This document shows positions 4,969 through 17,701 of a DNA stretch of 20,095 nucleotides, piece after piece (position 1 is the first letter of the stretch; each line of letters opens with the position of its first letter). The stretch is taken from positions 1 to 20,095 of IMG/VR virus record IMGVR_UViG_3300047322_001132. One strand, 5' to 3'. Source of the DNA: a virus. Both the position numbers and the translations under genes were made by a program. Under the pieces are notes generated by a model. That model was not told where the DNA came from. It ran no database searches and saw only the letters and a program-made list of their open reading frames with translations.

Positions 4969-5519
4969 TGAAAGTATGTCTTGACGCTGGGCATGGAGGC
5001 AAGGACATCGGCTACCCCTTCAAGAGGTACCGCGAGAAAGATATCACGCTCGCGGTCGTACGTCAACTCGAGTCCCTTATGAAGGCCGAAGGAAAACATA
5101 CTCCGGTTCTCACGCGGGTGCTCGATCAGGACGTGCTGCTCGACGAGCGCCTCAGCATTGCGGATGGAGAGAACTGCGACGTAATTCTCTCCATCCACCT
5201 CTACGCCGACCCACAGGACTATACGCCAGAGTGGCGCGGAGCAGAAGTTTGGGTCAACCCAGGTCATCAGAGGAACCGTGCCTTGGGACAGCTGTTGCAC
5301 GAGAGGCTCTTCGATACCTTCGAGGGGTATCCCTGGAAGGGGGTTCGCCACTCTGAACAGCTTGACATACTCAAGCGTGCCACGGTGCCAGCAGCTGTAG
5401 TCGAGCTTGGGTTTATTGATCTTCGCCATGAGGCGGAGTTCCTTTCTCGTCCTGGGGTTCAGCACATGGCTGCTCAGGCTCTTCTCTCTGCTCTCGACGC
5501 TTACGCCGAGCGTCTTTAG
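4968..5519 (+). CDS. N-acetylmuramoyl-L-alanine amidase (Amidase_3), endolysin
   Basis: This 183-aa protein is a single Amidase_3 domain. It would cleave the bond between N-acetylmuramic acid and L-alanine in peptidoglycan at lysis. The zinc ligands are visible as H9 (LDAGHGG), E23 (REKDI) and H77 (LSIHLYAD), and the catalytic glutamate is E146 (VVELGFID). There is no signal peptide and no added cell-wall-binding domain, as is usual for small endolysins of Gram-negative hosts. The GTG start overlaps the TAG stop of the giant gene by one base (TAGTG), with a GAGGA ribosome site about 8 nt upstream. The last 107 nt are antisense to the 3' end of the leftward helix-turn-helix gene. No holin was recognised next to it. 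Confidence 0.93.
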   Translation: MKVCLDAGHGGKDIGYPFKRYREKDITLAVVRQLESLMKAEGKHTPVLTRVLDQDVLLDERLSIADGENCDVILSIHLYADPQDYTPEWRGAEVWVNPGHQRNRALGQLLHERLFDTFEGYPWKGVRHSEQLDILKRATVPAAVVELGFIDLRHEAEFLSRPGVQHMAAQALLSALDAYAERL

Positions 5520-5835
5520 TCCTCTTGTACACGGAAGTGTAGTCGACGCCCAGGCGACGCGCAACCGCCGTCACTCCCGTAGCTTCAATCTCATCCAGGA
5601 GGTCCTCAGTCACGTCGAACTTGACGTACTGGGCACCTCCTTGCGTCTTGACTTCGATCTGGAACCGTTCGAACGCGAGCCTCACCGTGTGCCGCGAGAT
5701 CATTAGCTCGTTGGCGATGCCCTCGATCGACTTGTGCTCCTTGTACATCACTTCGAGCATCAGCTTCGGAATACCTGTCTCACCTGTCGGATCCGTGAAG
5801 CCGCGCTCCTTCGCAATTTTCGGCCAATCGATCAT
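5413..5835 (-). CDS. Small protein with two helix-turn-helix segments
   Basis: The gene encodes 140 aa from an ATG that overlaps the helicase-like gene stop (ATGA, 5832-5835), with GAGGG about 9 nt upstream. Two helix-turn-helix-like segments can be read: residues ~36-60 (SIEGIANELMISRHTVRLAF) and ~86-108 (TGVTAVARRLGVDYTSVYKR). The tail is very basic (DARRKRREQRE), then rich in Pro, Glu and Gln. This fits a DNA-binding regulator or a small terminase-like or replication accessory protein; the first is favoured, but no partner is evident. It is the last gene of the long leftward operon, and its 3' end runs antisense into the amidase. An in-frame extension upstream to 6123 exists, but it lies inside the helicase gene and lacks the coupled start. 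Confidence 0.75.
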   Translation of the reverse strand: MIDWPKIAKERGFTDPTGETGIPKLMLEVMYKEHKSIEGIANELMISRHTVRLAFERFQIEVKTQGGAQYVKFDVTEDLLDEIEATGVTAVARRLGVDYTSVYKRTKDARRKRREQREEPEQPCAEPQDEKGTPPHGEDQ

Positions 5836-7208
5836 TGTTTCCAACCCTCTGCCGTAAGCAGATACTTCCCACTCTTCGTGTCTTTGATGATGAGACCGGC
5901 CTGTACTCCGGTCTCGATGGTCTGTTTGAACGTCAGTGCGTTCATCTTCTTGCTGTTGAGGCGAAGCAACTCGCTGTGCCCTGCTCCACCCTGTCTTCCT
6001 TTGAGCTGTTTGATCAGTCCGCCGAGCGCTGCTCCTTGTTGTGACTCCTGCAGACTGTCGAAAGTCCCTGGTAACCATGCTTCGATCCAGTCGAGAATAC
6101 GGACGGCGTGTTGTAGGTGGCATCGCTGCATCTCCAAGTGATTGCCGCCCTCGCTGACGTTTAGTAGCATGGCGAGCCGCATTGCGTGATCGGGTTTTCT
6201 TTCGTAATACCCGCTGAATTGTTTGTTCTCGTGACGCTGTCGCTGGTTAGTCGTATACCACGACATGTACCAGTCCCGGCAGTCCGACGACATCATCACC
6301 TTCCCGCGGATCTGCGTGAGAAGGCGTAGCCTCTCCATCAGAGCGAACTTCTGCTCCTTATCCATTTCAGGTGGTAGAGGAAATGAACGTGGTGTGTCTT
6401 CTTGCACGACGAACAGTAGCCTCGATATGAAGCCACCTCCAAACGCGCTTTTGGGGATTTCCGTCTGAATCCAGTCCAGTGTACTCGCCCCCAGAAACGT
6501 AAGGGCCACGTTCCGCAATTCTGCATCACCACGCATGATCGTCGCTGATTTCCAAACGTCAGGACAATCCATAAGTCGGGTGAGCATCGGAACCATGCCC
6601 TCTTGGTACTTCTGCTTTCCGAGAAAGGCAGCGAGCTCTGGAGCATAGAGGAGGCCAGTTGCCGGATTCTTATCCTTGAGAGATTCAACGAGGACTTCTG
6701 GCGTGAGCTTGTCGGCGAGGACATTGAGACCTATTCCGTTCATCATGTTCACGGCGATTTGACATGCGGACGTCTTTTTGCAGCGGCCGCTCGGCGCCAC
6801 GATGACGACGCAGAGATTCGGAAAAAGCTGATACGGGCCCATGTCGTAGAAGAGATTGCGGGAGAGGGCTGACGATATCGCCATCATCCCCGCAAAGAAG
6901 TGGAAGACCGTAGGAGGCTCGGTATTCCGCGTGTATCTCACGTAGTCAGCTATCCAGCCGCTCCGTGGGACGAGGTCGTCAAAGTCATTCGGGCGAGTTG
7001 CTGATGGATCAACTTCCCTCCTAACGTCCTCAATTGTCATGTGGAAGACTCGAGCGAGACTCGAGTACAGCTCCTCAGGACGTGCCGCCGGTGATACGTC
7101 TCGCACCCAAGAGAAGATTTTCGTCTTCGACTCGGGTGCGATATCGGTCATCGTATTGAGCGCATCCATCAGCTTGTGAATCTGGGTGGAGAGCTCAAGG
7201 TCCTTCAC
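5832..7208 (-). CDS. DUF3987-type helicase/primase-like ATPase
   Basis: Length is 458 aa from the GTG at 7208. I chose this start because GGAGG lies 8 nt upstream and GTG overlaps the dpdA stop (GTGA). An ATG at 7229 would lengthen it by 7 codons but lies inside dpdA. The central part resembles DUF3987 phage ATPases: a P-loop-like segment APSGRCKKTS (~138-147), LADKLTPEVLVESL, the Walker B-like LLYAPELAAFLG with E191, and a later FLGASTLDWI and GGGFISRLLFV. The P-loop departs from GxxxxGKT, which I believe also occurs in phage members. The C-terminal ~60 residues look like a winged helix. Next to the polymerase, the likely role is replicative helicase or helicase loader. No TOPRIM or zinc primase domain is seen, so priming activity is unproven. 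Confidence 0.8.
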   Translation of the reverse strand: MKDLELSTQIHKLMDALNTMTDIAPESKTKIFSWVRDVSPAARPEELYSSLARVFHMTIEDVRREVDPSATRPNDFDDLVPRSGWIADYVRYTRNTEPPTVFHFFAGMMAISSALSRNLFYDMGPYQLFPNLCVVIVAPSGRCKKTSACQIAVNMMNGIGLNVLADKLTPEVLVESLKDKNPATGLLYAPELAAFLGKQKYQEGMVPMLTRLMDCPDVWKSATIMRGDAELRNVALTFLGASTLDWIQTEIPKSAFGGGFISRLLFVVQEDTPRSFPLPPEMDKEQKFALMERLRLLTQIRGKVMMSSDCRDWYMSWYTTNQRQRHENKQFSGYYERKPDHAMRLAMLLNVSEGGNHLEMQRCHLQHAVRILDWIEAWLPGTFDSLQESQQGAALGGLIKQLKGRQGGAGHSELLRLNSKKMNALTFKQTIETGVQAGLIIKDTKSGKYLLTAEGWKQ

Positions 7209-7930
7209 GCGAGAAACCTCCGAAGGCATGCCACGTTATAGAGGGCAGTGGCCATCTGGTCAAGTTCCATTTCAGGCGCGTCGAGGAAGCTGTCGTAGTG
7301 AGGCCAGGCACCGTGAGTGGTCGTCACGTTGTCCAGGCGCTCTACTTTATATCCCCACTTCAACGGCTTCGAGGTGTCGAACGTCCCTTTCGGAAAACGT
7401 GTTGCTGCTCTCCTCGCCTCGGAGAGGTCCTGCATTCCGAGGAAATGTACTTGCTTCCCGAGGTCCCAGCCTTTGTGGTGGATATCGAACTCCGCTATCC
7501 ACGCTTGACGATCTCTTCGATAGGGGAAGCAGATCGTCGGTACGTACATCATTCGGTAGAGCTCGAGCAGGCCCATTCTATCACCTTCATCGTCTCCGAC
7601 GATCACTGCCGCAGTACGAAGGTTGAACTGCTCCAAGCACCATTCGAGGTTGTTCCGAGTGAACTCTACGTCGTCGATGCGGTCAGGGCTAATCACGATG
7701 TCCGCCGCGATGATCGATTGTGCGATGACGATGTCTTCCCTCTTCGCCATATGCCCGAGTTCGTGGAAGCCGTTGTCGAGAATGATCGTTCTTCCCTTCT
7801 CACGTTGACCGACGAAGAAGTCTCTATACTCCCTGTCTCCGACAATCCTGTGTGCTATGGCGAAGTCGAAGTCCGTCAGGCGACTCAACTCCTCTGCGTG
7901 TGACTTTGGAATTTCCATTCCTAGCTTCAT
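7205..7930 (-). CDS. dpdA: DpdA-like DNA 7-deazaguanine transglycosylase (TGT superfamily)
   Basis: This 241-aa protein shows a TGT-like fingerprint. LDNGFHELG (51-59, Asp52) sits where TGT has its DSGGFQ loop. SPDRIDD (81-87) follows at a beta-strand end, VHFLGM (161-166) matches the conserved HLLG-like strand, and FDTSKPLKWG (184-193, Asp185) is where a catalytic Asp and base-contact residues are expected. DpdA is a TGT relative that exchanges guanine in DNA for preQ0. Supporting context is strong: folE, queD, queE and queC are all in the window. The ATG overlaps the polymerase stop (ATGA), so synthesis is probably coupled to replication. It is short for the TGT superfamily, and I see no zinc-binding Cys cluster like that of bacterial TGT. 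The assignment rests on motif order plus context, not on an alignment. Confidence 0.8.
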   Translation of the reverse strand: MKLGMEIPKSHAEELSRLTDFDFAIAHRIVGDREYRDFFVGQREKGRTIILDNGFHELGHMAKREDIVIAQSIIAADIVISPDRIDDVEFTRNNLEWCLEQFNLRTAAVIVGDDEGDRMGLLELYRMMYVPTICFPYRRDRQAWIAEFDIHHKGWDLGKQVHFLGMQDLSEARRAATRFPKGTFDTSKPLKWGYKVERLDNVTTTHGAWPHYDSFLDAPEMELDQMATALYNVACLRRFLA

Positions 7931-10287
7931 CCGAGCAACTCCTTCGTGAGGGAGGCGTTACCTTCCTTCGCCTCTTTCCAATTGAGGCCGAAAACTGTCT
8001 CAGCGGGACAGCTCCAGCCCTGCGGATAGTACACCCTGATCATGTCGGGATTCGCACTCGCCTCGACAATCTGGGGCCACTTTCGATTCATGTGAGTGTC
8101 GACACACTCCTTCACTTGCTTCGCCAGGTCCTTTGGTGTGACGCCTACGACTTCGTCATGGACGCTTAAGCGGAGAGAAGCTCCTGCGGGTAGGTCTCCG
8201 TCAATGTCGATGATCGCATCGTACATCATGTCTGCGGCGGTGCTCTGCTGAGGGAAGTTGTAGACTTCCGTTACTTGCCTGGAGAACCACCATCTCCGTC
8301 TGTTCCACGGATTCTTGAGGTAGCCGTTCTTCTCGACGAACTTGACGTTGCGTTCTCTCCACTTCCAGAACGTTTCGAAACGCTTGGCGAACTTGCTAAC
8401 GAAGGTCGTCACCCTGACAGTCGCCTGTTGATACGTCAGCCCCTGATACGAAGGCGTCTTCATCAACTGCTTGACGATGGACGGAATGCCTCGTCCGTAA
8501 GAGAGACCGTAAACGATAAACTTAGAATCGTAACGTTCATCCTTAGTAACGTCCTCGATTCGCTTACCAGAGGTTTCGGCAGCAATTCCGTAGTGCTGGT
8601 CGACTCCCGAGGCGAGAAGATCCAATCCCACCTTGTCTCCTGAGAGAACCATTGCAAGTCTCCACTCAACTTGACTCCAATCGGCGGAGAAGAAAACGTG
8701 CTCCGGAGTGTCCGGGATGTAAATCTCCCGAAGCTCCAGCGGGATGTTCTGAGCGTTGGGTTCCCACGAGTTAAGTCGACCAGTTGCAGCCTTCGCCGTG
8801 CCAAAGCGAGGGTGAATATAATTGGAGGAGTCAGTCTCCACGCTGACGAAGGTACTGTCAGCTTTGAGAAGGCTGCGCCTTTCGATGATTTGGAGGAAAA
8901 CGGGATTGTCCGAGATTTGGGCAAGGTTTTCTAACGCCTCCTCATTTGCGGTAGGACGCTGACCACGATTTCGATCCCGTACGTATTGCACGGGAAGACC
9001 GAGGTCTTCGTAGAGGACTTTCATCAGTTGTTTCGGACTGTCGAGGTTGAGCGTTTGATCACCGAAACCTTCCTTCAGGACGGCTTCGATTTCCATCGCC
9101 CTCTTCCTCATGACGAACGACCACATGATCGCCTTGTCCACGTCCTTCTTCAGGCCCTTCGCGGACATGCGACGAAGGATCGGCTGGACAGGCGCAACGT
9201 GTTTCGTGTAGAGGTCGAGCATGTCGAGAGAGCGTAGCTCCTTCTTCATCTCGAGGAAGGCGCGCGTCGTGCTGTCGATGTCCTTACAGTTATACGTGAA
9301 GAGATCGCCCTTCTTCGCCTCGTCCTTCCAATACGGCATGTCTGTGTAGAACGAGGCGACAGTGGCAAGGTCCTTCTTCATGTCCGAGTTGATGAGGTGA
9401 AACATCAACATCGTGTCCCAGGTGGGACCGTTGAAGTGAACACCTTTGTACTCGAGGAAGGGTTGGTCGAAAGACTCAGAATTCTGCCCGACTTTCGCAA
9501 CGCGACCGTCGAGCATGATCTCCGCGTGGACTTTCCTCATCTCAGGGTGCCAGCGGAAGCACGTGCTTTGGCCAGGGAGGACTCCCAAGCCATTGCAAAT
9601 GATGTCGCTGTTACGAGGGTCTAGGTTCGTCGTCTCAAGGTCGTAGACTACGTAGCCGTGCTCAAGTGCGAGAGCGTGAAGGTCTCTCGCTTCCTGCACA
9701 CTCCCGTCTCTCACGTAGGCAGTGGGAACGCGACGAATCTCAGGAAAGGCACTCTCCCCGAGGACCCGCTGAAGATCGAAGATTGGATAGGCAAACGCGC
9801 CTTGATCCCTCATTACGTAGGCGGGGTGGAGTGTTCCAACAACTTTCACACCCTCCAGCCCCGGCAGCGGAACACCTCGATGCAGAAAGATCCCCGTTTT
9901 GTACGTCAGGGCATTGAGAGGGGTATCCCCCATCGCCGCTACGACGTTGGGCTTGACGTCTTGGATCTCCTGCGTGAGGATAGTTGAGCAACACGTAATC
10001 TCTTCTCCCGTGGGTTTTCTGTTGCCTGGAGGACGGCACTTAACGGCATTCGTGACGAATACGTCCTTACGACTAATCCCAGCCTTCGCGAGAAGTACTG
10101 TAAGAACCTGGCCACTTCCACCGATGAAAGGACGACGATATCGGGCTTCTTCTTCTCCCGGCGCCTCACCGACAACCATAATTCTTGCGTTGGCGGGTCC
10201 TTCGCCGAATACGGGGCCCGGTGCGTGGTATAGAGGACATTGCTGACAGAATGACGGTTTTCCTGCGCCATGATCTTCTTCCTCCAC
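7927..10287 (-). CDS. UDG-DNA polymerase I fusion (family A, with 3'-5' exonuclease)
   Basis: This 786-aa fusion has three parts. Residues 1-180 are a family 4/5-type uracil-DNA glycosylase: C14/C17, GEAPGEEE (40-47), TNAVKCRPPGNR (C84), C99 or C100 as the fourth iron-sulfur ligand, and LHPAY (H154). Residues 210-350 are a DnaQ-like proofreading exonuclease: YDLET (D216/E218), NSESFD (N269/D274), YNCKD (Y332/D336). Residues 360-786 are a family A polymerase: motif A ADWSQVEWR (D536/E541), motif B R585-K589-Y593-Y597-G, motif C VHDE (710-712). No 5'-3' exonuclease is present. UDG-like domains on phage polymerases are known (for example SPO1). GTG starts inside the folE stop (TAGTG), with GGGAGG 5 nt upstream. 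It is the replicative polymerase of this phage. Confidence 0.95.
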   Translation of the reverse strand: MEEEDHGAGKPSFCQQCPLYHAPGPVFGEGPANARIMVVGEAPGEEEARYRRPFIGGSGQVLTVLLAKAGISRKDVFVTNAVKCRPPGNRKPTGEEITCCSTILTQEIQDVKPNVVAAMGDTPLNALTYKTGIFLHRGVPLPGLEGVKVVGTLHPAYVMRDQGAFAYPIFDLQRVLGESAFPEIRRVPTAYVRDGSVQEARDLHALALEHGYVVYDLETTNLDPRNSDIICNGLGVLPGQSTCFRWHPEMRKVHAEIMLDGRVAKVGQNSESFDQPFLEYKGVHFNGPTWDTMLMFHLINSDMKKDLATVASFYTDMPYWKDEAKKGDLFTYNCKDIDSTTRAFLEMKKELRSLDMLDLYTKHVAPVQPILRRMSAKGLKKDVDKAIMWSFVMRKRAMEIEAVLKEGFGDQTLNLDSPKQLMKVLYEDLGLPVQYVRDRNRGQRPTANEEALENLAQISDNPVFLQIIERRSLLKADSTFVSVETDSSNYIHPRFGTAKAATGRLNSWEPNAQNIPLELREIYIPDTPEHVFFSADWSQVEWRLAMVLSGDKVGLDLLASGVDQHYGIAAETSGKRIEDVTKDERYDSKFIVYGLSYGRGIPSIVKQLMKTPSYQGLTYQQATVRVTTFVSKFAKRFETFWKWRERNVKFVEKNGYLKNPWNRRRWWFSRQVTEVYNFPQQSTAADMMYDAIIDIDGDLPAGASLRLSVHDEVVGVTPKDLAKQVKECVDTHMNRKWPQIVEASANPDMIRVYYPQGWSCPAETVFGLNWKEAKEGNASLTKELLG

Positions 10288-10847
10288 TACGGCCTCCCGA
10301 TCAGCATCATGATTTCTTCACGGGCCTTCGAATCAACAAAGAAGGCTCCTCGCATCGCGGAAGTGACGACGTCAGCGTCGGAACGTATGCCTCGAAACTG
10401 CATGCATCCGTGCCGGCCGGTGATGATAACACAGCACCCGATAGGCTCGAGGTGTGCTTCGAGAGCATCTGCAACATCTTGTGTAAGTTGCTCCTGCAGG
10501 ACGGGCATGGACAGTCGCTCTTCAACTGCTCGAGCCAGTTTAGATAGGCCCAGAGCCTTTTTCTTGGGAATATACGCAACGTGTACTCGCATTGGAACCG
10601 GCTGCAAGTGATGCGGACAGAGGCCGATGACTTCGTGGTTCCGAAGGAGGACGGCGCCCCGGTACGATGTGGGAAAAGTCTTCCAGTTAGATGCGGCTGG
10701 GGAGAGCATTTCTTTGAAGAGGCTGGCGACGCGTTTCGGCGTCTCTTTGTAGTTGTCGTTTTCGACATCGATTCCCATTCCTTGTAGGAGGAGCGTAACG
10801 CCTTGCTCCATTTTGGCGGTGTTAAAGCGACTGCGTTTCTTGGTCAT
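10287..10847 (-). CDS. folE: GTP cyclohydrolase I (FolE)
   Basis: This 186-aa cytoplasmic enzyme opens GTP to 7,8-dihydroneopterin triphosphate, the first step of preQ0 synthesis. Zinc ligands are visible as C77, H79, H80 (LCPHHLQPVP) and C148 (RHGCMQFRG). Other family blocks are AYIPKKKALGLSKLAR (91-106) and LQEQLTQDVADAL (117-129). Length is slightly below the ~220 aa of E. coli FolE, mostly at the N-terminus. The ATG overlaps the stop of a 31-codon gene (ATGA), with GGAGA about 6 nt upstream. The stop overlaps the polymerase GTG. With queD, queE and queC present, its job here is base modification, not folate supply. Confidence 0.97.
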   Translation of the reverse strand: MTKKRSRFNTAKMEQGVTLLLQGMGIDVENDNYKETPKRVASLFKEMLSPAASNWKTFPTSYRGAVLLRNHEVIGLCPHHLQPVPMRVHVAYIPKKKALGLSKLARAVEERLSMPVLQEQLTQDVADALEAHLEPIGCCVIITGRHGCMQFRGIRSDADVVTSAMRGAFFVDSKAREEIMMLIGRP

Positions 10848-10939
10848 CGTTTTCTCCAGGCGATGAGGAGCAGGATGAGAGCCCAGGCGGCGAGGATGAG
10901 GTAATATCCCCAGTCTGCCATCAAGGCTCCGTCCGGCAT
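10844..10939 (-). CDS. 31-aa single-pass membrane microprotein between queE and folE
   Basis: A 31-codon gene fills the gap between queE and folE exactly. Its ATG shares one base with the queE stop (TAATG), and its TGA overlaps the folE ATG (ATGA). The product begins MPDGALMADWGYY, then has a hydrophobic stretch (residues ~12-28, LILAAWALILLLIAW), and ends in RKR. That is a single membrane-spanning helix with a positive cytoplasmic tail. There is no signal-peptide cleavage site. The second Met (residue 7) is an alternative start. Function is unknown; possibilities are a membrane-anchoring partner of a neighbouring enzyme, a small lysis or exclusion factor, or a peptide whose main role is to couple translation of queE to folE. 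Confidence 0.7.
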   Translation of the reverse strand: MPDGALMADWGYYLILAAWALILLLIAWRKR

Positions 10940-11586
10940 TATCGCACTTTCAGAAGCTTGTGCATCTGCACACTGAGGCGGAGTTCAGGGTGTTGACGCT
11001 GGAGGTCCTGGACGACTTTCAGGGCTTCGAAGTCAACTTCGTACTTCTTGTTGCACGGTTGGAGGAAGGTGGGTTTGGCACACTCATTCGCGAAGTAGAG
11101 TGCGTCGTCGATCGTTGGCCAGCCTGGACCGTTGCCGAGGCCGCCGACAATCACCTTGACTTCCTTGCAGGGGGTGACGTTCTCTTTGAGCCAGCCGGGT
11201 TTCGGACTCATCGTAATCCAGATTTGGTCGTGCGACGCCCAGTCAGGCAGTTTGATAGTGCCGGACGTTTCGATGTGGATCTGGAAGTCGTCCTGGATGA
11301 AGGCTTCGGCGAGGTTCTCAAGGTGAGGCTGGTCGAATGGCTCACCGCCCGTAAAGCAGACGTGAACGAGTTCATTGGCCTTCGCCCAGTCTACGAGAGC
11401 GGTCAGCGTGAGAGATCCGCCACCTTTCCACGGATCCATCCTGTCGAAGTCCGTGTCGCAGTGGTGACAGACTTTCTTCCCGACGCTGCATCCCGTAAAG
11501 CGAATGAAGCCCATGAGAGTCCCTGCGTACACGCCTTCGCCTTGCGGACTGACGAAGCGTTCAGCGATTTGGAATGAGTGATGCAT
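10939..11586 (-). CDS. queE: 7-carboxy-7-deazaguanine synthase (QueE), radical SAM
   Basis: This 215-aa protein converts 6-carboxytetrahydropterin to 7-carboxy-7-deazaguanine (CDG), the ring-contraction step of preQ0 synthesis. The N-terminal ERFVSPQGEGVYAG (9-22) is typical of QueE. The iron-sulfur cysteines are C33, C40 and C43, followed by DTDF. The SAM-binding FTGGEPFDQP (78-87) and ETSGT (106-110) are present. The cysteine motif is CX6CX2C, not CX3CX2C, a variant that deserves note. The ATG lies 26 nt inside the 3' end of queD, with GAGG about 10 nt upstream. The stop is shared with the 31-aa gene (TAATG). Confidence 0.95.
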   Translation of the reverse strand: MHHSFQIAERFVSPQGEGVYAGTLMGFIRFTGCSVGKKVCHHCDTDFDRMDPWKGGGSLTLTALVDWAKANELVHVCFTGGEPFDQPHLENLAEAFIQDDFQIHIETSGTIKLPDWASHDQIWITMSPKPGWLKENVTPCKEVKVIVGGLGNGPGWPTIDDALYFANECAKPTFLQPCNKKYEVDFEALKVVQDLQRQHPELRLSVQMHKLLKVR

Positions 11587-12031
11587 GGTTCTCGTACCTC
11601 GCGCTCGTGTTGGAGCTCTCGTAAACCGTTACCGCGCTGACGTACATGCTTCCGTCTTCTCGGCCGATCTTCGCGTCGAGTTCTCCGAGCCAGTGTTTGG
11701 CCAGGCACTCCGCCGTTGGCGGAGCACCGATCTCGAAGATTCGATCCATGCCCAGGCGAGCGTTTGAGACGCCACCTTCCCACGCGTAACGCTGGAGCTC
11801 GGCGAACGGATCGCCCATCTCGCAGACGAAGGCGTGGTCGTACTTCTTGAAGACGGCTTCCATCTCCCGTTTGAGGTCGGAGAAGTCGATGACCATTCCC
11901 TGCTCGTCGAGACTGTCAGCCTGGACTTCCACCTCAACGCGATAGTTGTGTCCATGGATGTGACGACAGAGCCCTGCGTGATGCTGCAGGCGGTGTCCCA
12001 TGGGAAATTCAATGCTGCGTGTTACGATCAT
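11561..12031 (-). CDS. queD: 6-carboxytetrahydropterin synthase (QueD)
   Basis: This 156-aa protein of the 6-pyruvoyltetrahydropterin synthase fold makes 6-carboxy-5,6,7,8-tetrahydropterin from dihydroneopterin triphosphate. Zinc ligands are H13 (FPMGHRL), H26 and H28 (HIHGHNY). The catalytic Cys is C22, four residues before the HGH motif, as in QueD. VIDFSDLK (47-54), YDHAF (D65/H66) and VYESSNTSARY (E138) are the other family blocks. It is somewhat longer than E. coli QueD (~120 aa), with an insert around residues 70-100. The ATG overlaps the stop of the 62-aa gene (ATGA). The 3' end overlaps queE by 26 nt. Confidence 0.95.
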   Translation of the reverse strand: MIVTRSIEFPMGHRLQHHAGLCRHIHGHNYRVEVEVQADSLDEQGMVIDFSDLKREMEAVFKKYDHAFVCEMGDPFAELQRYAWEGGVSNARLGMDRIFEIGAPPTAECLAKHWLGELDAKIGREDGSMYVSAVTVYESSNTSARYENHASLIPNR

Positions 12032-12216
12032 GCGGTCAAGTCCTTAATGCGCCTGAGGAGATCGACAAGATCGACGGCGCACTTGTCGATGATGGCGTAA
12101 AGCTCTTCCTTCGTGACATCGTTCAGCGTGAGTTTGGCGTGACCGTGAAGATCGAGTGTTTCGACAGTCAAGCGGAGCTTTGCGTGTCCGCCTTCCAAGA
12201 CTCTGTCGATCTTCAC
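12028..12216 (-). CDS. 62-aa hypothetical protein upstream of queD
   Basis: I do not recognise this family. The gene starts with GTG overlapping the stop of the DUF5664-type gene (GTGA, 12213-12216) and ends with TGA overlapping the queD ATG (ATGA, 12028-12031). That tight placement is the main evidence that it is real. The ribosome site is weak, so it probably depends on coupling. The N-terminal half has two similar strands (GGHAKLRLTVETLDL and HGHAKLTLNDV), suggesting a small beta-hairpin. The C-terminal half looks helical (KEELYAIIDKCAVDLVDLLR). A small accessory protein of the preQ0 genes or of nucleotide metabolism is possible but unproven. Confidence 0.6.
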   Translation of the reverse strand: MKIDRVLEGGHAKLRLTVETLDLHGHAKLTLNDVTKEELYAIIDKCAVDLVDLLRRIKDLTA

Positions 12217-12566
12217 GCGGGCACCGCGTCTCTATGTTTCTCTCGAGCTTCCCAGAGCATCATCAGAGCCCACGCTGCGCCTGCAAGGTCGTCGTCGGTC
12301 TGGTGAGGGAAGTCTCCGTGGTTGTGGTAGTGGTTGGAGAGCTCTTGGAGGTGCTTCAGGCCGTGCGCGAAGCCTTGCTCGATGAAGTCGCGGTCAAGCA
12401 GGCCTTTGCGGTAGTTGAAGCGTCCATACTTCACCTCGCCCTCGTCACCCCGACGAGCGATGAGCTCGAGAAACCCTTGAGGGATGCGAGTCGTATTAGG
12501 GAGCTTCTCCGACCGCCGTGCGCCGCTCGAAAAGGCCGTGTCCTTGTCTTTCTTCTGCTTGGGCAT
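12213..12566 (-). CDS. DUF5664-type protein, putative dATP/dGTP diphosphohydrolase
   Basis: The 117-aa product resembles the phage DUF5664 family (also called dATP/dGTP diphosphohydrolase N-terminal domain). Recognisable features are the early FSSGARR block, PQGFLELIARRGDEGEVKYG, FNYRKGL and a late helix with DDDLAGAAWALMMLWE, in the usual order. Members are thought to have an all-alpha, MazG-like fold and to trim purine deoxynucleotides; this is family-level knowledge, and no activity can be read from sequence. ATG at 12566 has a GAGAGGA ribosome site ~7 nt upstream. The first 71 nt overlap the membrane-protein gene. Next to preQ0 genes, a role in dGTP pool control is an inference. Confidence 0.7.
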   Translation of the reverse strand: MPKQKKDKDTAFSSGARRSEKLPNTTRIPQGFLELIARRGDEGEVKYGRFNYRKGLLDRDFIEQGFAHGLKHLQELSNHYHNHGDFPHQTDDDLAGAAWALMMLWEAREKHRDAVPA

Positions 12567-12678
12567 GCTTCTTCCTCTCTAACGTGAATCGGGTTCCGAG
12601 TACGAAGGAAGCGATGGCGACCGCGGTAAGTGCGATACCAAAGATCATTCCTCCGAAGAAGATGTTTCCGTCAATCAT
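12496..12678 (-). CDS. 60-aa single-pass membrane protein
   Basis: The chosen ATG (12676-12678) has GGAGG exactly 5 nt upstream. The longer reading from 12690 would start inside that ribosome site. Residues ~6-27 are hydrophobic (IFFGGMIFGIALTAVAIASF), followed by a charged segment (RFTLERKKHAQAEERQGHG), giving one transmembrane helix with a cytoplasmic tail. It overlaps the downstream DUF5664-type gene by 71 nt, so its last ~23 residues share DNA with that gene's start. It is the first gene after the pair of strong hairpins. Function is unknown. It could be an anchor, a holin-like protein or a superinfection-exclusion factor, though its position in the replication block argues against a classic holin. 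Confidence 0.6.
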   Translation of the reverse strand: MIDGNIFFGGMIFGIALTAVAIASFVLGTRFTLERKKHAQAEERQGHGLFERRTAVGEAP

Positions 12679-12699
12679 GAAATCCTCCAAATAGGGAAC

Positions 12700-12735
12700 C
12701 CCCCTGAGGCGGACTGCGAATCACACCTCAGGGGG
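12700..12735 (-). terminator. 10-bp perfect hairpin, possible terminator or 5' leader element
   Basis: Positions 12700-12709 (CCCCCTGAGG) pair perfectly with 12726-12735 (CCTCAGGGGG) across a 16-nt loop. On the leftward RNA the stem is followed by GTTCCCTATTT, which is only moderately U-rich, so it may be a partial terminator, an mRNA 3'-end stabiliser or a leader of the membrane-protein gene. It lies between the DUF669-type gene and the next gene. Confidence 0.6.
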
Positions 12736-12740
12736 CCCAT

Positions 12741-12785
12741 GGCTAGGAGGCGTAGTAGGAGGCTACGCCATGCAAGTTCCTAGCC
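12741..12785 (-). other. Two-tier hairpin overlapping the DUF669-type stop codon
   Basis: The outer stem pairs GGCTAGGA (12741-12748) with TCCTAGCC (12778-12785). Stacked directly inside, GGCGTAG (12749-12755) pairs with CTACGCC (12763-12769) around a 7-nt loop. An 8-nt bulge (12770-12777) lies on one side, so 15 bp pair in total. The stop codon of the upstream gene (12780-12782) is inside the outer stem. On the leftward RNA the loop reads CCUCCUA, which is complementary to a ribosome site. Confidence 0.6.
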
Positions 12786-13226
12786 GAAGACGCTGATGTA
12801 GTTCTTGACGCGATTCCGCGCCTCGTACGTGTTGCCCGTGTTCGGGTCCGTGCGTTCCGCCTCGACTTCGACGACGAGGATGACCTGAGCGTCGAGCATG
12901 TCGCTCTTGCCGACGAAGACGCCGTCTTCGAAGACCGGCTTGTCATCCGGCCACGCGATCGCATCGAGGAACTTGCGGAGCATGAAGGCCTTGCCGGGGG
13001 CCAGCGTGAGGTTGTCGAAGATGTGTCTTCCGAACATCTCCCCTTCATCTTGAATGACCCAGTCCGGGCGGAGTGAGGCGTGCTGGGCGTCGGTCTTCTT
13101 GCCCTGAGCACGAGCCTCGTCAGGATCGAAAGCCTCGATCTTGGCGAGACGACCCTTGTACGTACCGGCGGGAACGGGATCTGATCCCTTGACTTCTCCA
13201 CCGGCGAGATTCTGAGGAAGTGGCAT
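12780..13226 (-). CDS. DUF669-type protein, probable ssDNA-binding protein
   Basis: This 148-aa protein follows the pattern of the DUF669 phage family: PVPAGTYKGRLAKIEAF near the N-terminus, a middle strand block (RPDWVIQDEGEMFGRHIFDNLTL), FMLRKFLDAIAWP, and a C-terminal strand with a charged end (YEARNRVKNYISVFG). These proteins usually sit beside a Sak4/RecA-like ATPase and are thought to be OB-like ssDNA-binding or annealing partners; that neighbour is present here, 16 nt upstream. The ATG has GGAG ~8 nt upstream. An acidic Glu/Asp tail like that of cellular SSB is absent. The stop lies inside a hairpin. Confidence 0.7.
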   Translation of the reverse strand: MPLPQNLAGGEVKGSDPVPAGTYKGRLAKIEAFDPDEARAQGKKTDAQHASLRPDWVIQDEGEMFGRHIFDNLTLAPGKAFMLRKFLDAIAWPDDKPVFEDGVFVGKSDMLDAQVILVVEVEAERTDPNTGNTYEARNRVKNYISVFG

Positions 13227-13242
13227 TGAACTATCTCCTACG

Positions 13243-14025
13243 TTAACGAGCGGCTGTCACCGCGACAGCCTTGGGTTTACCGACTTGAGGTGTGAGCTGT
13301 GCAAGGAGTTTCGCGTCTCCCGTACGCATCCAATCGCACAGTATTGCGGTGTTCGGGAGCAGGAATTCAGGCACGTTTAGTCCGGGCACCCGAATTCCTG
13401 CGACTGCTCGCATATGAGTGCGAGTTCGTAGGAGACGCTGTCCGTTGACAATGTCTCCGCGCAGAGTGGCATCGGGCCACCCTGGAAGTTCATGAGGGAG
13501 TTTCTGTCCGGGGAACTCAGGCACCTTATACGTGATGATCTTGCCTTCGGTGTCCTTCTCCTCGGCCATGCTCTCTCGGGCGATGGCGAGGAAGTTTGCT
13601 TGAACGTTCATCAGCAGCTTCATCAACTGCCGCATCTTCTCGTTCATGTAGGGATAGGCCATGCGAGGGTCCTTCCCTCCCGTGCCCATCGTGTCCCAGA
13701 GACCTTGCCAGCCCTTGATCTTCTGTGCGCCTTCCAGGCCTAGCTCTCCCGCGACGCTCGCGCTGTCGAGGATGACAGTTTCAAACTCTTCCCCTTCGAA
13801 CGTGCAGACGTCTCGATTCTTGCCGAGCTCACGTGCGACCTGCAAGAGCGTTTCCATGTCGTCGATGGGAAGGTAGGGAATGGCGAGGTCTTGGAGTGTT
13901 CCCAGGCCACGTTTCGCTCCCATCTCACACGCGAGGACAAGTGGGCGTCGAGCCGTCCGCGTGAGCATCGTCTTTCCCCAGCGAGGCACGGCGTATGCGA
14001 GGATCGTAGCCCACGCATCGCCCAT
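13243..14025 (-). CDS. Sak4/RecA-like recombination ATPase (AAA_24 type)
   Basis: Length is 260 aa from the ATG at 14025, chosen because it begins 13 nt after the preceding stop; the frame continues further upstream, but that would overlap the 72-aa gene by ~100 nt. No strong ribosome site precedes it. The P-loop is AVPRWGKT (12-19), with Ala replacing the first Gly. A Walker B-like strand follows (VILDSASVAG, D87). The later FLAIARES block and an MRAVAGIRVPG region fit the single-domain RecA-like ATPases known as Sak4, which promote phage homologous recombination with a single-stranded DNA-binding partner. The DUF669-type gene directly downstream and the Cas4-type nuclease upstream make a recombination set. 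Confidence 0.75.
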   Translation of the reverse strand: MGDAWATILAYAVPRWGKTMLTRTARRPLVLACEMGAKRGLGTLQDLAIPYLPIDDMETLLQVARELGKNRDVCTFEGEEFETVILDSASVAGELGLEGAQKIKGWQGLWDTMGTGGKDPRMAYPYMNEKMRQLMKLLMNVQANFLAIARESMAEEKDTEGKIITYKVPEFPGQKLPHELPGWPDATLRGDIVNGQRLLRTRTHMRAVAGIRVPGLNVPEFLLPNTAILCDWMRTGDAKLLAQLTPQVGKPKAVAVTAAR

Positions 14026-14038
14026 TTCGTTCGTCCGC

Positions 14039-14257
14039 TTAAGACTTGGTATCAAAGGTGATGTCCCGTTCTTTCGTATAGTCGTGAGGAAGGAAGACCA
14101 CTTGGCCGTTGACGACTGCCAGCGTGAGAAGTGGTCCACTCACGTTTTCGTGCGTCAGCTGTATCTGCCAAGCGTCTTCCATCGAGTTCTCCACGACCGT
14201 TAGGATGCCGAGGCGAGGTACCCGGATCTCTCCGAGTACCTTCACGACGGGGCTCAT
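14039..14257 (-). CDS. 72-aa hypothetical protein
   Basis: I do not recognise this protein. The ATG at 14257 follows the stop of the GroES-like gene by one base (TAAGATG), so it starts where the upstream reading frame ends. The frame is open to 14350, but that part lies inside the GroES-like gene and reads as a basic shadow of its acidic tail. The product looks like a small all-beta protein: VVKVLGEIRVPRLGILTVV, then WQIQLTHE, LLTLAVVNGQVVFLPHDY. There is no membrane segment or Cys pair. Placement between the GroES-like and Sak4-like genes suggests expression with them. Confidence 0.6.
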   Translation of the reverse strand: MSPVVKVLGEIRVPRLGILTVVENSMEDAWQIQLTHENVSGPLLTLAVVNGQVVFLPHDYTKERDITFDTKS

Positions 14258-14258
14258 C

Positions 14259-14732
14259 TTAGGCTTCTTCCTTCTCTTCCGCCACGTCCTCGTCGTCGTC
14301 CTCTTCCACGCCGATTTCGTCTTCGGCCCAGGCGGTGATCTCTTCCGCAATCGCAGTCAGATCGCTGCTCGAGAGTTCTTCGCCTTCGACGAGGCCAAGC
14401 TGCTTCGTCACTTCTTCCAAGAAGGTCTTCTTTTCCATGCTTTCGCTCCTAGTGAATACGGCGAGTACGTCTCGCTCGTCAACGGTGCAGAACATTCTGC
14501 CACCGAGTTGAAATTCCCTCTCCGAGTACTTCGAAAAGAGAATGCGCCGACCGTCGAGGACTCGTCCGTCCCAGTCTCCGGCAGCGTTGTGAATGTGAAC
14601 GAGTCCGCTTTGCGCACGGATCCGCTCATTGTCGGGCATGTGAAGAACGACCTTCCCATCCTTCGAAACGTACACGCCGGCGTCAGCGTCTCGTGTGACG
14701 ATCATCATCCCGTAGAGAGGGCGGATGTTCAC
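14259..14732 (-). CDS. GroES-like (Cpn10) protein with acidic C-terminal tail
   Basis: From the GTG at 14732 the product is 157 aa and begins MNIRPLYGMMIVTRD, close to the MNIRPLHDRVIVKR start of GroES. Residues 1-95 follow the Cpn10 pattern: a mobile-loop region with KVVLHMP, SGLVHIHNA near the GEVLAVG position, VLDGRRILFSKYS where GroES has the 'GD-V-F' strand, and a final TVDERDVLAVF. The last ~60 residues are an added helical and very acidic tail (EEDDDEDVAEEKEE). AAGGAGG lies 4 nt before the GTG, and the GTG overlaps the 27-aa gene stop. A longer ATG start (14768) exists but lies in the 27-aa gene. Phages such as T4 (gp31) replace GroES for capsid folding; a similar role here is inference. 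Confidence 0.75.
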   Translation of the reverse strand: MNIRPLYGMMIVTRDADAGVYVSKDGKVVLHMPDNERIRAQSGLVHIHNAAGDWDGRVLDGRRILFSKYSEREFQLGGRMFCTVDERDVLAVFTRSESMEKKTFLEEVTKQLGLVEGEELSSSDLTAIAEEITAWAEDEIGVEEDDDEDVAEEKEEA

Positions 14733-14812
14733 CTGTCCTCCTTCGACCATTGGAGGTATCCGCACCAAGCGCAGAAGAAGCCGATCCAGAAAGTAGGCCA
14801 GTCCCAGATCAC
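14729..14812 (-). CDS. 27-aa Trp-rich microprotein between nuclease and GroES-like genes
   Basis: A 27-codon gene fills the gap exactly. Its GTG overlaps the nuclease stop (GTGA, 14809-14812), and its TGA overlaps the GTG of the GroES-like gene (GTGA, 14729-14732). A GGAG motif lies ~7 nt upstream. The peptide starts MIWDWPTFWIGFF, continues with CAWCGYLQW and ends in SKEDR. It has five Trp and a short hydrophobic, probably membrane-inserted core, and a CxxC pair. The family is unknown. Its layout resembles the 31-aa microprotein at 10844-10939. Confidence 0.6.
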   Translation of the reverse strand: MIWDWPTFWIGFFCAWCGYLQWSKEDR

Positions 14813-15798
14813 GGCTTCTCTCCCTCCGTCAGGAGCACTGCATCATCGACGTAGTCTTCCTTGCGTCTCACGAACTCCGCACGAAGTCCGATGTTCGAAG
14901 GATCCATGCACAGTCCGCGGTAGAGACAAGTTCCGAATCGGAAGCATTCCTTCTCATCCCGCGGAAAGGCGAGCCAAGGCTCCGTAGTCGGCACGACGTA
15001 GACGTTGTCAGTCGTTCCTTCGTAGCCGAGGTCGAAGTGGCACCGTTGGATCGTCCGCGCCCAATTCGTGAAGTTGTATTCGAACTCACGGAGCTCAGCA
15101 TCCGTCCGCTCGAACGCCTCTCTGTTGAACTGAGGGACTTTCGTCTTCACAAGGAAGTCGACAATCACGCCCTGGACACGAGTCTTCAGGAGTTTCGTCG
15201 CGCCGTAGATGTATGCGGTCATCTGCAAGTCCATCTGATACTTCATCATCTCCCGCATGTCCATCTTCGCGGCGGTCTTGTGATCGACGATCCACAGTCC
15301 CCCGAAGGCGTGAACGAACTTGTCGGTGCGGAAGCGAAGGAAGATCCCGGTGCCCTCCCCTACTTCGACGGTCCCAGCAACTTCGTTTCCGAGCGGCCTG
15401 AACATCTTCCCTTGGTCGCCCCAGAACTCGACATAGTGGATGAGGAGCTTCTCAACGAGCTCTTCCCCCTCCGCATACATCTCATCATCACCGGGAAGAC
15501 GACGTTTCGGAAGATCGCGTCGGAACCTTTCCTTAGCGGCGACGATTGACGCTGGAAGATCCACTCCCGCGCCCAGCTGCGCAAGTCCCTCATGAGTCGC
15601 GCTCCCCACTTCCAGGTTCATTGCTGGTCGGTCCGCCTCGAGATTCTCCACGAACCTCCAGTAGAACTTCCTCGGGCAGTCCCGGAAGATCTGCATGCGG
15701 GATTGGTTCAACGTTATGTCCCTCGCCCAGGCTGCCGCGGCTAACTTCGCGGACTCCGTAACCTGTGAGAGGGACGTTATTCTGTCCTGTAAGTGCAT
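14809..15798 (-). CDS. Cas4/RecB-type PD-(D/E)XK exonuclease with 4Fe-4S cysteines
   Basis: From the ATG at 15798 (GGAGGAAGGG 6-11 nt upstream) the product is 329 aa. RecB-nuclease motifs appear in order: SRMQIFRDCPRKFYW (C41), GSATHEGLA (H69), FRTDKFV (D159), IVDHKTA (D172/K174) and QMTAY (Q192/Y196). A C-terminal trio C285, C291, C297 (CFRFGTCLYRGLC) plus C41 gives the four ligands of a Cas4/AddB iron-sulfur cluster. No CRISPR array or cas gene is present, so it is most likely a phage recombination exonuclease working with the Sak4-like and DUF669-type proteins. The frame stays open upstream to 15900; the first 209 nt overlap the preceding gene. Confidence 0.88.
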   Translation of the reverse strand: MHLQDRITSLSQVTESAKLAAAAWARDITLNQSRMQIFRDCPRKFYWRFVENLEADRPAMNLEVGSATHEGLAQLGAGVDLPASIVAAKERFRRDLPKRRLPGDDEMYAEGEELVEKLLIHYVEFWGDQGKMFRPLGNEVAGTVEVGEGTGIFLRFRTDKFVHAFGGLWIVDHKTAAKMDMREMMKYQMDLQMTAYIYGATKLLKTRVQGVIVDFLVKTKVPQFNREAFERTDAELREFEYNFTNWARTIQRCHFDLGYEGTTDNVYVVPTTEPWLAFPRDEKECFRFGTCLYRGLCMDPSNIGLRAEFVRRKEDYVDDAVLLTEGEKP

Positions 15799-16390
15799 TG
15801 TACGCCCTTCCTCCGAATATGCCGTTGGGAAATGGAATTGCATTGCCTGCGCAACTCCGAAGATAACCGCTGTAGGTAGAGTAGCCGTCGGCATCGACAC
15901 TCCTCACGCTCGTTACGACGTGGATGCTTTCTCCACCCTTCCAGGTGAATTGCACCCAGCCGTAGCCGTCTTTTGCGTCGTAGAACAATGTCCGCTTGAG
16001 AGGAGCAGGCGGTGCAGGTACCTCGAGGTCTCCGTAGACTGCTCGGAGGACGTTGATAGCATGTCCCTGTGCACCTTCCACGCCCAACTTGGCGAGGTAT
16101 CGTTCGACATTGAGTCGTGCTCCATAGTCCGTCCCTGCCTTGAGGATGTCGGTGAGGTGTGTTTGCACCTCTTCATCCGACCACGTGTTGTCTCCAACAC
16201 CCATGCCTCCGACTTCGAAGACATCGTCACCTCGACGTTCAGTCGCGAGGAAGAAGTACGGAAGATCTAACTCCTCCGACCCCTTCCACCTAAACTGGAT
16301 CCAGGTGTCCTGTGACGTCCCTGGCTTCCACTGACGGTCGATGAGAAACTCCTCCAGTTGGAGCTTCTCCGCGTCCGTTATGAAGACCAT
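15590..16390 (-). CDS. Unknown 266-aa protein with a repeated WxQFxWKGxE motif
   Basis: I do not recognise this protein. The ATG at 16390 overlaps the nucleotidyltransferase stop by 13 nt; a TTG at 16402 would add four codons. Two similar segments occur, DTWIQFRWKGSEELDLP (~29-45) and GYGWVQFTWKGGESIHV (~143-159), each followed by beta-rich sequence, suggesting a duplicated small domain. No catalytic motif, Cys cluster or membrane segment is seen. The last ~70 codons share DNA with the 5' end of the nuclease gene in another frame. It is unclear whether the protein truly ends at 15590 or whether a frameshift lies in the overlap. Confidence 0.6.
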   Translation of the reverse strand: MVFITDAEKLQLEEFLIDRQWKPGTSQDTWIQFRWKGSEELDLPYFFLATERRGDDVFEVGGMGVGDNTWSDEEVQTHLTDILKAGTDYGARLNVERYLAKLGVEGAQGHAINVLRAVYGDLEVPAPPAPLKRTLFYDAKDGYGWVQFTWKGGESIHVVTSVRSVDADGYSTYSGYLRSCAGNAIPFPNGIFGGRAYNALTGQNNVPLTGYGVREVSRGSLGEGHNVEPIPHADLPGLPEEVLLEVRGESRGGPTSNEPGSGERDS

Positions 16391-16710
16391 CCGAGCACCC
16401 AAAAGTCAATGCGCTTGGTTGGTTCCAACTTCCACTGGACCTTACGAGCGGCTCGATAGCCTGGCTCCGTCGGGTACTTATCCCGTTCTGCCATGTCCTC
16501 GGCGTACCCCCAATGAATGTCCAGCGCGCCGATGAGACCATCGCAGTCAGGACGGCCGGTCCCGTGCATTGGGAGGAAGTAGATGTCGACATCCTTTTCA
16601 CTGTGACCGACGTGCAGGATGCTTCCACCGAGACAGACGTGGTAGTTGAAGCGCATTGCGACTTCTCGCACGTCCGCGATCAGTTGGTAGGCTTGTGAAC
16701 GATTCCACAT
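16378..16710 (-). CDS. Minimal nucleotidyltransferase-fold protein
   Basis: The 110-aa product has the nucleotidyltransferase signature: GGS (28-30) ten residues before DVD (D40, D42), and a third acidic residue on a later strand, RIDFWV (D102). This spacing matches minimal, MNT-like nucleotidyltransferases that transfer a nucleotide to a small molecule, protein or RNA. The ATG overlaps the DUF3846 stop (TAATG), with GGAGG ~10 nt upstream. No HEPN partner, which often pairs with such proteins, is seen beside it. Proximity to queC does not prove a link to modification; substrate is unknown. Confidence 0.65.
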   Translation of the reverse strand: MWNRSQAYQLIADVREVAMRFNYHVCLGGSILHVGHSEKDVDIYFLPMHGTGRPDCDGLIGALDIHWGYAEDMAERDKYPTEPGYRAARKVQWKLEPTKRIDFWVLGWSS

Positions 16711-17000
16711 TATTGGAAATCCTCCTCTTTGACGAGGACGACATCGCCGACGATCGGACTTGTCGTGCCTGGATGACAGACGCTGTGGTAGAGCTTCGTA
16801 GCCTTCGCATTGAAGGGAAGCTGCTTTGCGTAGCCGTTATCGTCCACGAGCATCACCTGCTTGTGTATACGTAAGTTCACGATGTTCACGCAGTCGCAGT
16901 TGATGAGACGGTGCACTTCACCGAGGATGTAGTCTTCGGGGTTGAGGTCGAGAACGTGAGTCTCTTCCGTACCGTTCGCACGAATCACTTCGACTGTCAT
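16710..17000 (-). CDS. DUF3846-type protein
   Basis: From the ATG at 17000, which overlaps the queC stop (ATGA), the product is 96 aa. The C-terminal block VMLVDDNGYAKQLPFNAKATKLY followed by SPIVGDVVLVKEED matches the DUF3846 pattern of phage and plasmid proteins (a short acidic strand, LPxNxxAT, then GDVVVV). Function of that family is unknown to me. There is a Cys pair (CDC) in the middle. The upstream in-frame extension to 17096 lies inside queC. Gene order queC-DUF3846-nucleotidyltransferase is very tight, so the three are co-translated. Confidence 0.7.
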   Translation of the reverse strand: MTVEVIRANGTEETHVLDLNPEDYILGEVHRLINCDCVNIVNLRIHKQVMLVDDNGYAKQLPFNAKATKLYHSVCHPGTTSPIVGDVVLVKEEDFQ

Positions 17001-17674
17001 GCTGCGTACGTTGTGGGATCGAATCCCTCCAACGCCTCTTTGCGTTCCACGCACGTGCCACACAGGCCGCAGTGGACGTCCTTTCCTTCGTAGCACGAAT
17101 ACGTCAAGCGGATCAGCTCCGGACGGTTGTTGATGATCTTGCCGATGCTCCGCTTGGACAGCGTGATGAAGGGAGTGAACAGCTCAATCGGATCGAAGTG
17201 GATCCGTTCGAAGAGGACGGAGAGTGCCTCTGCAAACTCGGGACGACAGTCCGGGTATACTGCGTGGTCCCCCGCGTGAGCAGCGTATGCGACAGTCTTC
17301 GCGTTCGTGGAGATCGCCCATGCTGCTGCGTAGTTGAGCATGAGGCTGTTGCGGTTAGGAACGACAGTCACTCGCATGCTCTCGTCGGCGTAGTGACCGT
17401 GTGGAACGTCGATCTCGAAGTCCGTCTGCGAGGACCCTCGGAACGCGTCCTTCGGCAGCCTGATGATCTTGTGCCGCACGCGAAGCATGCTCCCGATCGC
17501 CATCGCTGCGGTGAGTTCACGAACGTGGCGTTGTCCGTAGTCGAAGCTGATTGCGGTGACTGCCTCGTTTCCGTGACGGTCCACGCACATCTGCAGGAGA
17601 GCGGACGAATCTAACCCGCCGCTGAAGCATACCACGATTGGTGGCACGGTGTTCTGGAAATCTTTCCTCAACAT
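16997..17674 (-). CDS. queC: 7-cyano-7-deazaguanine (preQ0) synthase (QueC)
   Basis: This 225-aa enzyme uses ATP and ammonia to turn CDG into preQ0. The PP-loop is SGGLDSS (18-24). Zinc cysteines are C194, C202, C205 and C208 (HCGLCGTC). Other family blocks are SFDYGQRH (43-50), VPNRNSLMLNYAA (105-117) and HAGDHAVYPDCRPEF (133-147). Length fits stand-alone QueC (E. coli ~231 aa), so no glutamine amidotransferase domain is fused; such a fusion makes the archaeosine-type base in phage 9g. ATG is chosen with AAGGAG ~9 nt upstream; a TTG seven codons earlier is less likely. A terminator-like hairpin lies 28 nt upstream. Confidence 0.96.
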   Translation of the reverse strand: MLRKDFQNTVPPIVVCFSGGLDSSALLQMCVDRHGNEAVTAISFDYGQRHVRELTAAMAIGSMLRVRHKIIRLPKDAFRGSSQTDFEIDVPHGHYADESMRVTVVPNRNSLMLNYAAAWAISTNAKTVAYAAHAGDHAVYPDCRPEFAEALSVLFERIHFDPIELFTPFITLSKRSIGKIINNRPELIRLTYSCYEGKDVHCGLCGTCVERKEALEGFDPTTYAA

Positions 17675-17701
17675 TGAATGCAACTCCTTGACCAAACGAA
17701 A

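Follow-up and report, generated by a model that had tools for sequence, protein, structure and literature searches.

A preQ0 gene set and a compact DpdA-type transglycosylase predicted to modify the DNA of an uncultured phage

Does the uncultured phage represented by IMG/VR record IMGVR_UViG_3300047322_001132 carry 7-deazaguanine in its DNA, and if so, which enzyme would insert it and as which base? The window analysed here, the whole 20,095-base fragment, encodes FolE, QueD, QueE and QueC, the enzymes leading to preQ0, together with a 241-amino-acid (aa) protein resembling tRNA-guanine transglycosylase (TGT), which the original prediction took for a DpdA-like enzyme acting on DNA. That interpretation is partly supported and holds in outline. 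In the mechanism we favor, to which we assign a probability of roughly 80%, the four enzymes would turn GTP into free preQ0 during infection, and the DpdA-type enzyme, co-expressed with the polymerase, would after replication swap guanine in phage DNA, rather than tRNA, for preQ0 through a covalent aspartate intermediate. D185 would be the nucleophile, D52 and D83 would bind the base, and the product would be DNA marked with 7-deazaguanine, most simply the deoxynucleoside of preQ0 (dPreQ0), that could resist host nucleases. This mechanism draws on gene content and order, intact motifs, a predicted fold, placement in a family and alternation with a known DpdA, all observed here. The preQ0 gene kit with DpdA-type insertion is already known and the window adds a member of that kind; new in this analysis is a sharp divergence island at dpdA between close relatives.

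The preQ0 pathway and its candidate insertase

Pfam assigned FolE, QueD and QueC unambiguously, and the assignment of QueE is supported by its Radical_SAM domain and a PHROG QueE family match (Table 1). Each enzyme carries its catalytic motifs: CPHH at 77 and RHGCM at 145 in FolE; CRHIHGH at 22 plus YDH and YES in QueD; three cysteines and TGGEP in QueE; and SGGLDSS at 25 with four zinc cysteines, spaced C-x7-CxxCxxC from 201, in QueC, which has no amidotransferase fusion. The four intact genes confirm at the sequence level that the phage pathway to preQ0 is complete, and the catalytic residues claimed for it stood up to Pfam, NCBIfam and PHROG matching as well as motif inspection. Its predicted limits needed correction, as the left end at 5413 belongs to a helix-turn-helix (HTH) gene and the QueC start at 17674 is an internal ATG in an open frame reaching a TTG at 17695.

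The TGT-like protein lies, as predicted, between polymerase and helicase. Alone it matched no NCBIfam model, and phmmer returned no PDB match. A tblastn search reached proteins of Weizmannia phage Youna2, Bacillus phage BSP7 and Campylobacter phages, as well as the annotated DNA guanine transglycosylase of Flavobacterium phage immuto (1e-6), and a scan with an alignment of these proteins found 276 relatives, 80 of which were kept. Across 38 aligned sequences E6, P8, R47, D52, N53, E57, P82, D83, R141, H162, L164, G165, E171, D185, T186, P189 and N232 are invariant. The 38-member profile matched the DNA-guanine transglycosylase 7ui4 (8e-4), the sole PDB chain below 0.2, over HLLG...DTSnP. Comparison by hhalign with 9g-type DpdA (E 1.7e-4) paired D52 with D72 (the DSGA aspartate), H162 with H196 and D185 with D215, and E. 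coli TGT aligned weakly (E 0.012), with LLGc..DTSnP opposite LMGVG..DCVMPT; D52 and D185 thus align to DpdA/TGT motifs. All 10 remote window-type proteins sampled via QueC keep D52, D83, H162 and D185, one having FD for PD around D83, and we regard these four as putative active-site residues.

An AlphaFold model of the insertase (predicted local distance difference test, pLDDT, 92.6; predicted template modelling score, pTM, 0.89) was compared by Foldseek, which ranked mouse TGT 7b2i first (1.2e-5) and the DNA preQ0 insertase DpdA 7ui4 second (5e-5). The margin is small, with the next TIM-barrel at 5.3e-5, and because other barrels score so close behind, it is the sequence motifs that carry the TGT/DpdA assignment. 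The predicted TIM-barrel fold together with the conserved aspartate positions places the insertase in the TGT/DpdA superfamily, and a ratio of nonsynonymous to synonymous substitution rates (dN/dS) of about 0.2 indicates that it is under purifying selection. Among related loci, which carry L numbers here, L074 (6572-8231) and L076 (8765-10424) have two adjoining insertase paralogues within one phage.

Functional equivalence to a known DpdA was suggested by an independent sampling of preQ0 clusters, seeded with QueC and not with the insertase. Among 25 such loci with all four preQ0 genes, 11 had a DpdA1-type (9g-type) insertase, 10 the window type, none both and four neither; those four end before the expected position, leaving 21 untruncated clusters. 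By our own arithmetic the chance of zero overlap would be about 3e-4 if the two types were independent, a figure that related loci make less strict. Since the two insertases never occur together, they appear to fill the same role in preQ0 clusters.

A tree of 39 relatives (midpoint rooted for drawing only, with some long branches) grouped the insertase with the immuto/Campylobacter family as a separate deep clade: the window falls among nine members without QueF (support 99/99), and a separate clade, in which QueF and a formyltransferase are common, holds immuto and Campylobacter CJLB-12, the latter's protein being 95% identical to the insertase of CP220 and CPt10. This family is probably the DpdA3 group of Cui et al. 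2023, a name reportedly tied there to full guanine replacement. The prediction of a DpdA as in 9g and CAjan was therefore right about a DpdA-like insertase and wrong about its type, the nearest characterised members being those of immuto and the Campylobacter firehammerviruses. The 9g/CAjan (DpdA1) type was rejected since tblastn from the window insertase failed to reach either DpdA and profile comparisons showed remote similarity only, and the DpdA2 type of phage nt-1 was rejected on a profile alignment of 45 non-catalytic columns at a probability of 4%. Because the insertase belongs to a different compact subgroup, 9g and CAjan are the wrong template for the extent and sites of guanine replacement.

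The pathway enzymes also vary among relatives. The QueE iron-sulfur motif C-x6-C-x2-C (GC[ST]VGKxxCxxC) is present in all 8 aligned clade members (window, L005, L006, L016-L020), the spacing being C-x3-C-x2-C in CAjan and 9g and the second spacing longer in immuto. Immuto-type clusters encode QueC-like proteins without the four zinc cysteines (L022 6159-6998, L073 4468-5349), whose function may differ, and QueD-like proteins in which the zinc motif reads HGY, not HGH (L012 7917-8378, L022 7556-8023, L073 6189-6656).

A divergence island at dpdA

Between the window and its relative L006, the proteins FolE, QueE, PolA and DUF3987 (sequenced part) are 97, 98, 96 and 100% identical, and the insertase is 65% identical. 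Nucleotide identity is 90-100% at 8057-7937, averages about 60-65% at 7907-7247 and returns to 93-100% at 7217-7097, so that the drop starts and stops at the dpdA gene borders. The same pattern was found in L005 (insertase 67% vs 89-94% for FolE, QueE, PolA and DUF3987) and L007 (63% vs 88-97%). Synonymous divergence (dS) is 1.44 for dpdA, 0.52 for polA and 0.14 for folE, and the raised dpdA value suggests that an older allele was imported and not just that amino acids changed faster. A chimeric assembly was rejected as the cause, as the breakpoints fall at gene borders, the open reading frames (ORFs) are intact and the three lineages come from different samples. QueD and the dGTPase-like gene are divergent too, which makes the region a mosaic, and dpdA alone is an isolated island between conserved neighbors. 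Across locus pairs with three or more further genes, the insertase was least conserved in just 11 of 689, pairs that come mostly from the QueF clade and are not independent.

The island suggests allele exchange between close relatives, and the dpdA alleles may differ in recognition, probably in site preference. We tentatively propose, as a reading less likely than not, that dpdA is a swappable specificity gene, with divergent intact alleles exchanged exactly between the conserved polA and helicase ends and thereby switching the sites that receive preQ0. Such switching would resemble that of specificity subunits in restriction-modification systems. Exchange of dpdA as a separate gene block may alter which DNA sites get marked, which raises the question of whether host restriction or modification-sensing defenses press phages to vary the sequence preference of their base-exchange enzymes.

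The expected base and alternative explanations

Contigs that overlap the window and are nearly identical to it add 25.6 kb on the left and 1.2 kb on the right (~27 kb of flanks, ~47 kb in total). The left extension carries terminase, portal, capsid and tail genes, and whatever could be recognised in the remainder of an overlapping 37-kb contig encodes virion and packaging proteins, with no sign of a modification enzyme. QueF, a GATase_6 amidotransferase and a formyltransferase were not found in the ~47 kb, the right 1.2 kb lying outside the QueF Pfam search. The original prediction had noted the missing QueF and amidotransferase-QueC fusion, expected dPreQ0 as the simplest base and called for a search for QueF beyond the window; the flanking contigs are in line with that expectation. 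Of the markers for the group with deoxyarchaeosine (dG+) and the deoxynucleoside of preQ1 (dPreQ1), QueF and GATase_6 were likewise not found and QueC is unfused; ArcS was not among the genes searched, and the genome is not closed.

Judged by these genes, the presence of a 7-deazaguanine in the phage DNA is well supported, and dPreQ0 is its likeliest form given the lack of hits to QueF, an amidotransferase or a formyltransferase. In CAjan and Rosebush, which have preQ0 genes and no finishing enzyme, about 30% of G is dPreQ0 (PMC6884629). The deoxynucleoside of 7-amido-7-deazaguanine (dADG) is possible, since 7-amido-7-deazaguanine (ADG) is an intermediate of the QueC reaction (PMC13329287). 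In CP220 and CPt10, Campylobacter phages that hold a family member, dADG replaces 100% of dG (PMC8306585; also PMC10273834), and a small share of our confidence goes to the same pathway and insertase giving complete guanine replacement, dADG, or both, as in these firehammerviruses; ADG would in that case either be released by QueC or be inserted as such. Yet the window clade is a separate branch at 20-25% identity, has neither QueF nor formyltransferase, and shows dpdA evolution unlike that in the immuto/Campylobacter clade, which together argue for a different, possibly site-selective enzyme.

It is very unlikely that the TGT-like protein works on host tRNA, with the pathway raising tRNA queuosine to aid phage translation. 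The top single fold match is a TGT, and for some phages with preQ0 genes but no recognised DpdA, action on tRNA has been suggested (PMC6884629). The insertase, however, has only 241 aa and no CxC motif, hence no CxCxxC zinc site, and with PF01702 unmatched in six frames we rejected TGT proper; it overlaps polA and alternates with 9g-type DpdA, the window has no tRNA genes, and no QueF was found to supply preQ1, on which bacterial TGT usually acts. Slightly less probable still is a degenerate or decorative pathway with unmodified DNA, as in Mycobacterium phage Orion, which has dpdA only and no modification (PMC6884629), since every pathway and insertase gene is intact with dN/dS < 0.3 between relatives and the catalytic residues are conserved across 38 relatives.

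Several points weigh against preQ0 insertion into phage DNA as set out at the start. The insertase has no Pfam TGT match and is just 20-25% identical to characterised members; and the known sequence ends do not overlap to close a genome, so that the missing portion could encode an enzyme acting at a later step. The Pfam miss was rejected as an argument because it says nothing about DpdA identity: at E 0.01, Pfam also misses the DpdA of 9g, CAjan and nt-1.

Gene layout and comparison with known systems

Table 1. Features of the window discussed in the text
Feature	Position	Strand	Evidence
FolE, GTP cyclohydrolase I	10287-10847	-	GTP_cyclohydroI PF01227 5e-44
QueD, 6-carboxytetrahydropterin synthase	11561-12031	-	PTPS 9e-34; TIGR03367 above NCBIfam cut-off
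QueE, radical SAM 7-carboxy-7-deazaguanine synthase	10939-11586	-	Radical_SAM PF04055 4e-8; PHROG QueE 2e-24
QueC, 7-cyano-7-deazaguanine synthase (final step to preQ0)	16997-17695	-	Pfam QueC 3e-50; TIGR00364 155.9 bits vs cut-off 150.3
Predicted DpdA-type DNA transglycosylase (TGT-like), 241 aa	7205-7930	-	profile match 7ui4, AlphaFold, Foldseek, alternation with 9g-type DpdA
UDG-PolA, family 4 uracil-DNA glycosylase (UDG) fused to family A DNA polymerase	7927-10287	-	PF03167 1.5e-30, PF00476 2.5e-55, TIGR00758 above cut-off
DUF3987 helicase/primase-type protein	5832-7229	-	PF13148 6.7e-11; PHROG DNA primase 2.5e-36
dATP/dGTP diphosphohydrolase N-terminal-like small protein	12213-12566	-	PF18909 1.6e-6, 28.5 bits vs cut-off 27
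Allelic divergence block coinciding with dpdA	7247-7907	-	30-nt identity scan, window vs L006

All pathway and replication genes described lie on the minus strand. From 17695 their order is QueC, a DUF3846 protein, two unknowns, a PD-(D/E)XK nuclease, a Cpn10-like protein, an AAA_24 ATPase, a small unknown protein, the dGTP-diphosphohydrolase-like protein, QueD, QueE, FolE, UDG-PolA, the TGT-like protein, the DUF3987 helicase/primase and the HTH protein, so that replication and recombination genes (AAA_24, PD-(D/E)XK nuclease) stand between QueC and QueD. The insertase start codon overlaps the polA end (7927) and its 3' end overlaps the DUF3987 start (7229), and the overlap and shared location with polA are seen again in relatives. 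The annotated HTH ORF (5413-6123, 236 aa) is probably too long, as a start near 5835 would adjoin the DUF3987 gene end at 5832.

The UDG motifs of the window UDG-PolA are intact. HPA is present in all clade members listed (window, L005-L007, L016-L020) and GEAPG in all except L016; motif inspection found no UDG motifs in the PolA of immuto, Youna2 or BSP7. Relatives of the diphosphohydrolase-like protein occur in L003, L005, L006 and L016-L018, and small nucleotide-pyrophosphohydrolase-like proteins lie near the insertase in both clades, from different families (PF18909 in the window, PRA-PH in immuto; L012 11279-11803); a link to dGTP pools is possible. A megablast search with the whole window gave no match among phages, and a PolA-based search for more close relatives returned only lineages already in the set. 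Bacterial and archaeal genomes matched at only two loci, distant ones that each have preQ0 genes and QueF, and we therefore make no host inference.

The window extends DNA 7-deazaguanine systems, as predicted from its genes, to uncultured phages whose insertase escapes standard family searches, and preQ0 clusters that are otherwise equivalent carry one or the other of two remotely related insertases. Among known systems, the insertases of immuto (QQO91982, annotated DpdA), CP220, CPt10 and CJLB-12 are similar in size (258-264 vs 241 aa) and share the LDN, PD, HxLG and DTSxP motifs with the window protein, but they belong to the other clade at 20-24% identity. As in the window, the immuto insertase adjoins preQ0 genes, with polA about 3 kb away, whereas many immuto-clade clusters also have a thymidylate-kinase-like gene, QueF and a formyltransferase, none of which is present in the window. 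Youna2 and BSP7 resemble the window in having QueC, QueD, QueE, FolE, insertase and PolA in a single gene run without QueF, with the insertase overlapping polA; their insertase, annotated "hypothetical protein" and about 22-25% identical, differs in lying upstream rather than downstream of polA, and their PolA is without UDG motifs. Phages 9g and CAjan likewise have these four preQ0 genes and a single insertase near the polymerase, and CAjan, with no amidotransferase, has dPreQ0 in its DNA (PMC6884629); their DpdA1 differs in being longer (306-317 aa) and a remote homologue of the window insertase. Vibrio phage nt-1 also has a TGT-superfamily insertase, DpdA2, within a preQ0 cluster (PMC6884629), but at 464 aa, and DpdA2 has no equivalent of 9g His196 (PMC6884629), the counterpart of which, H162, is invariant in the window family.

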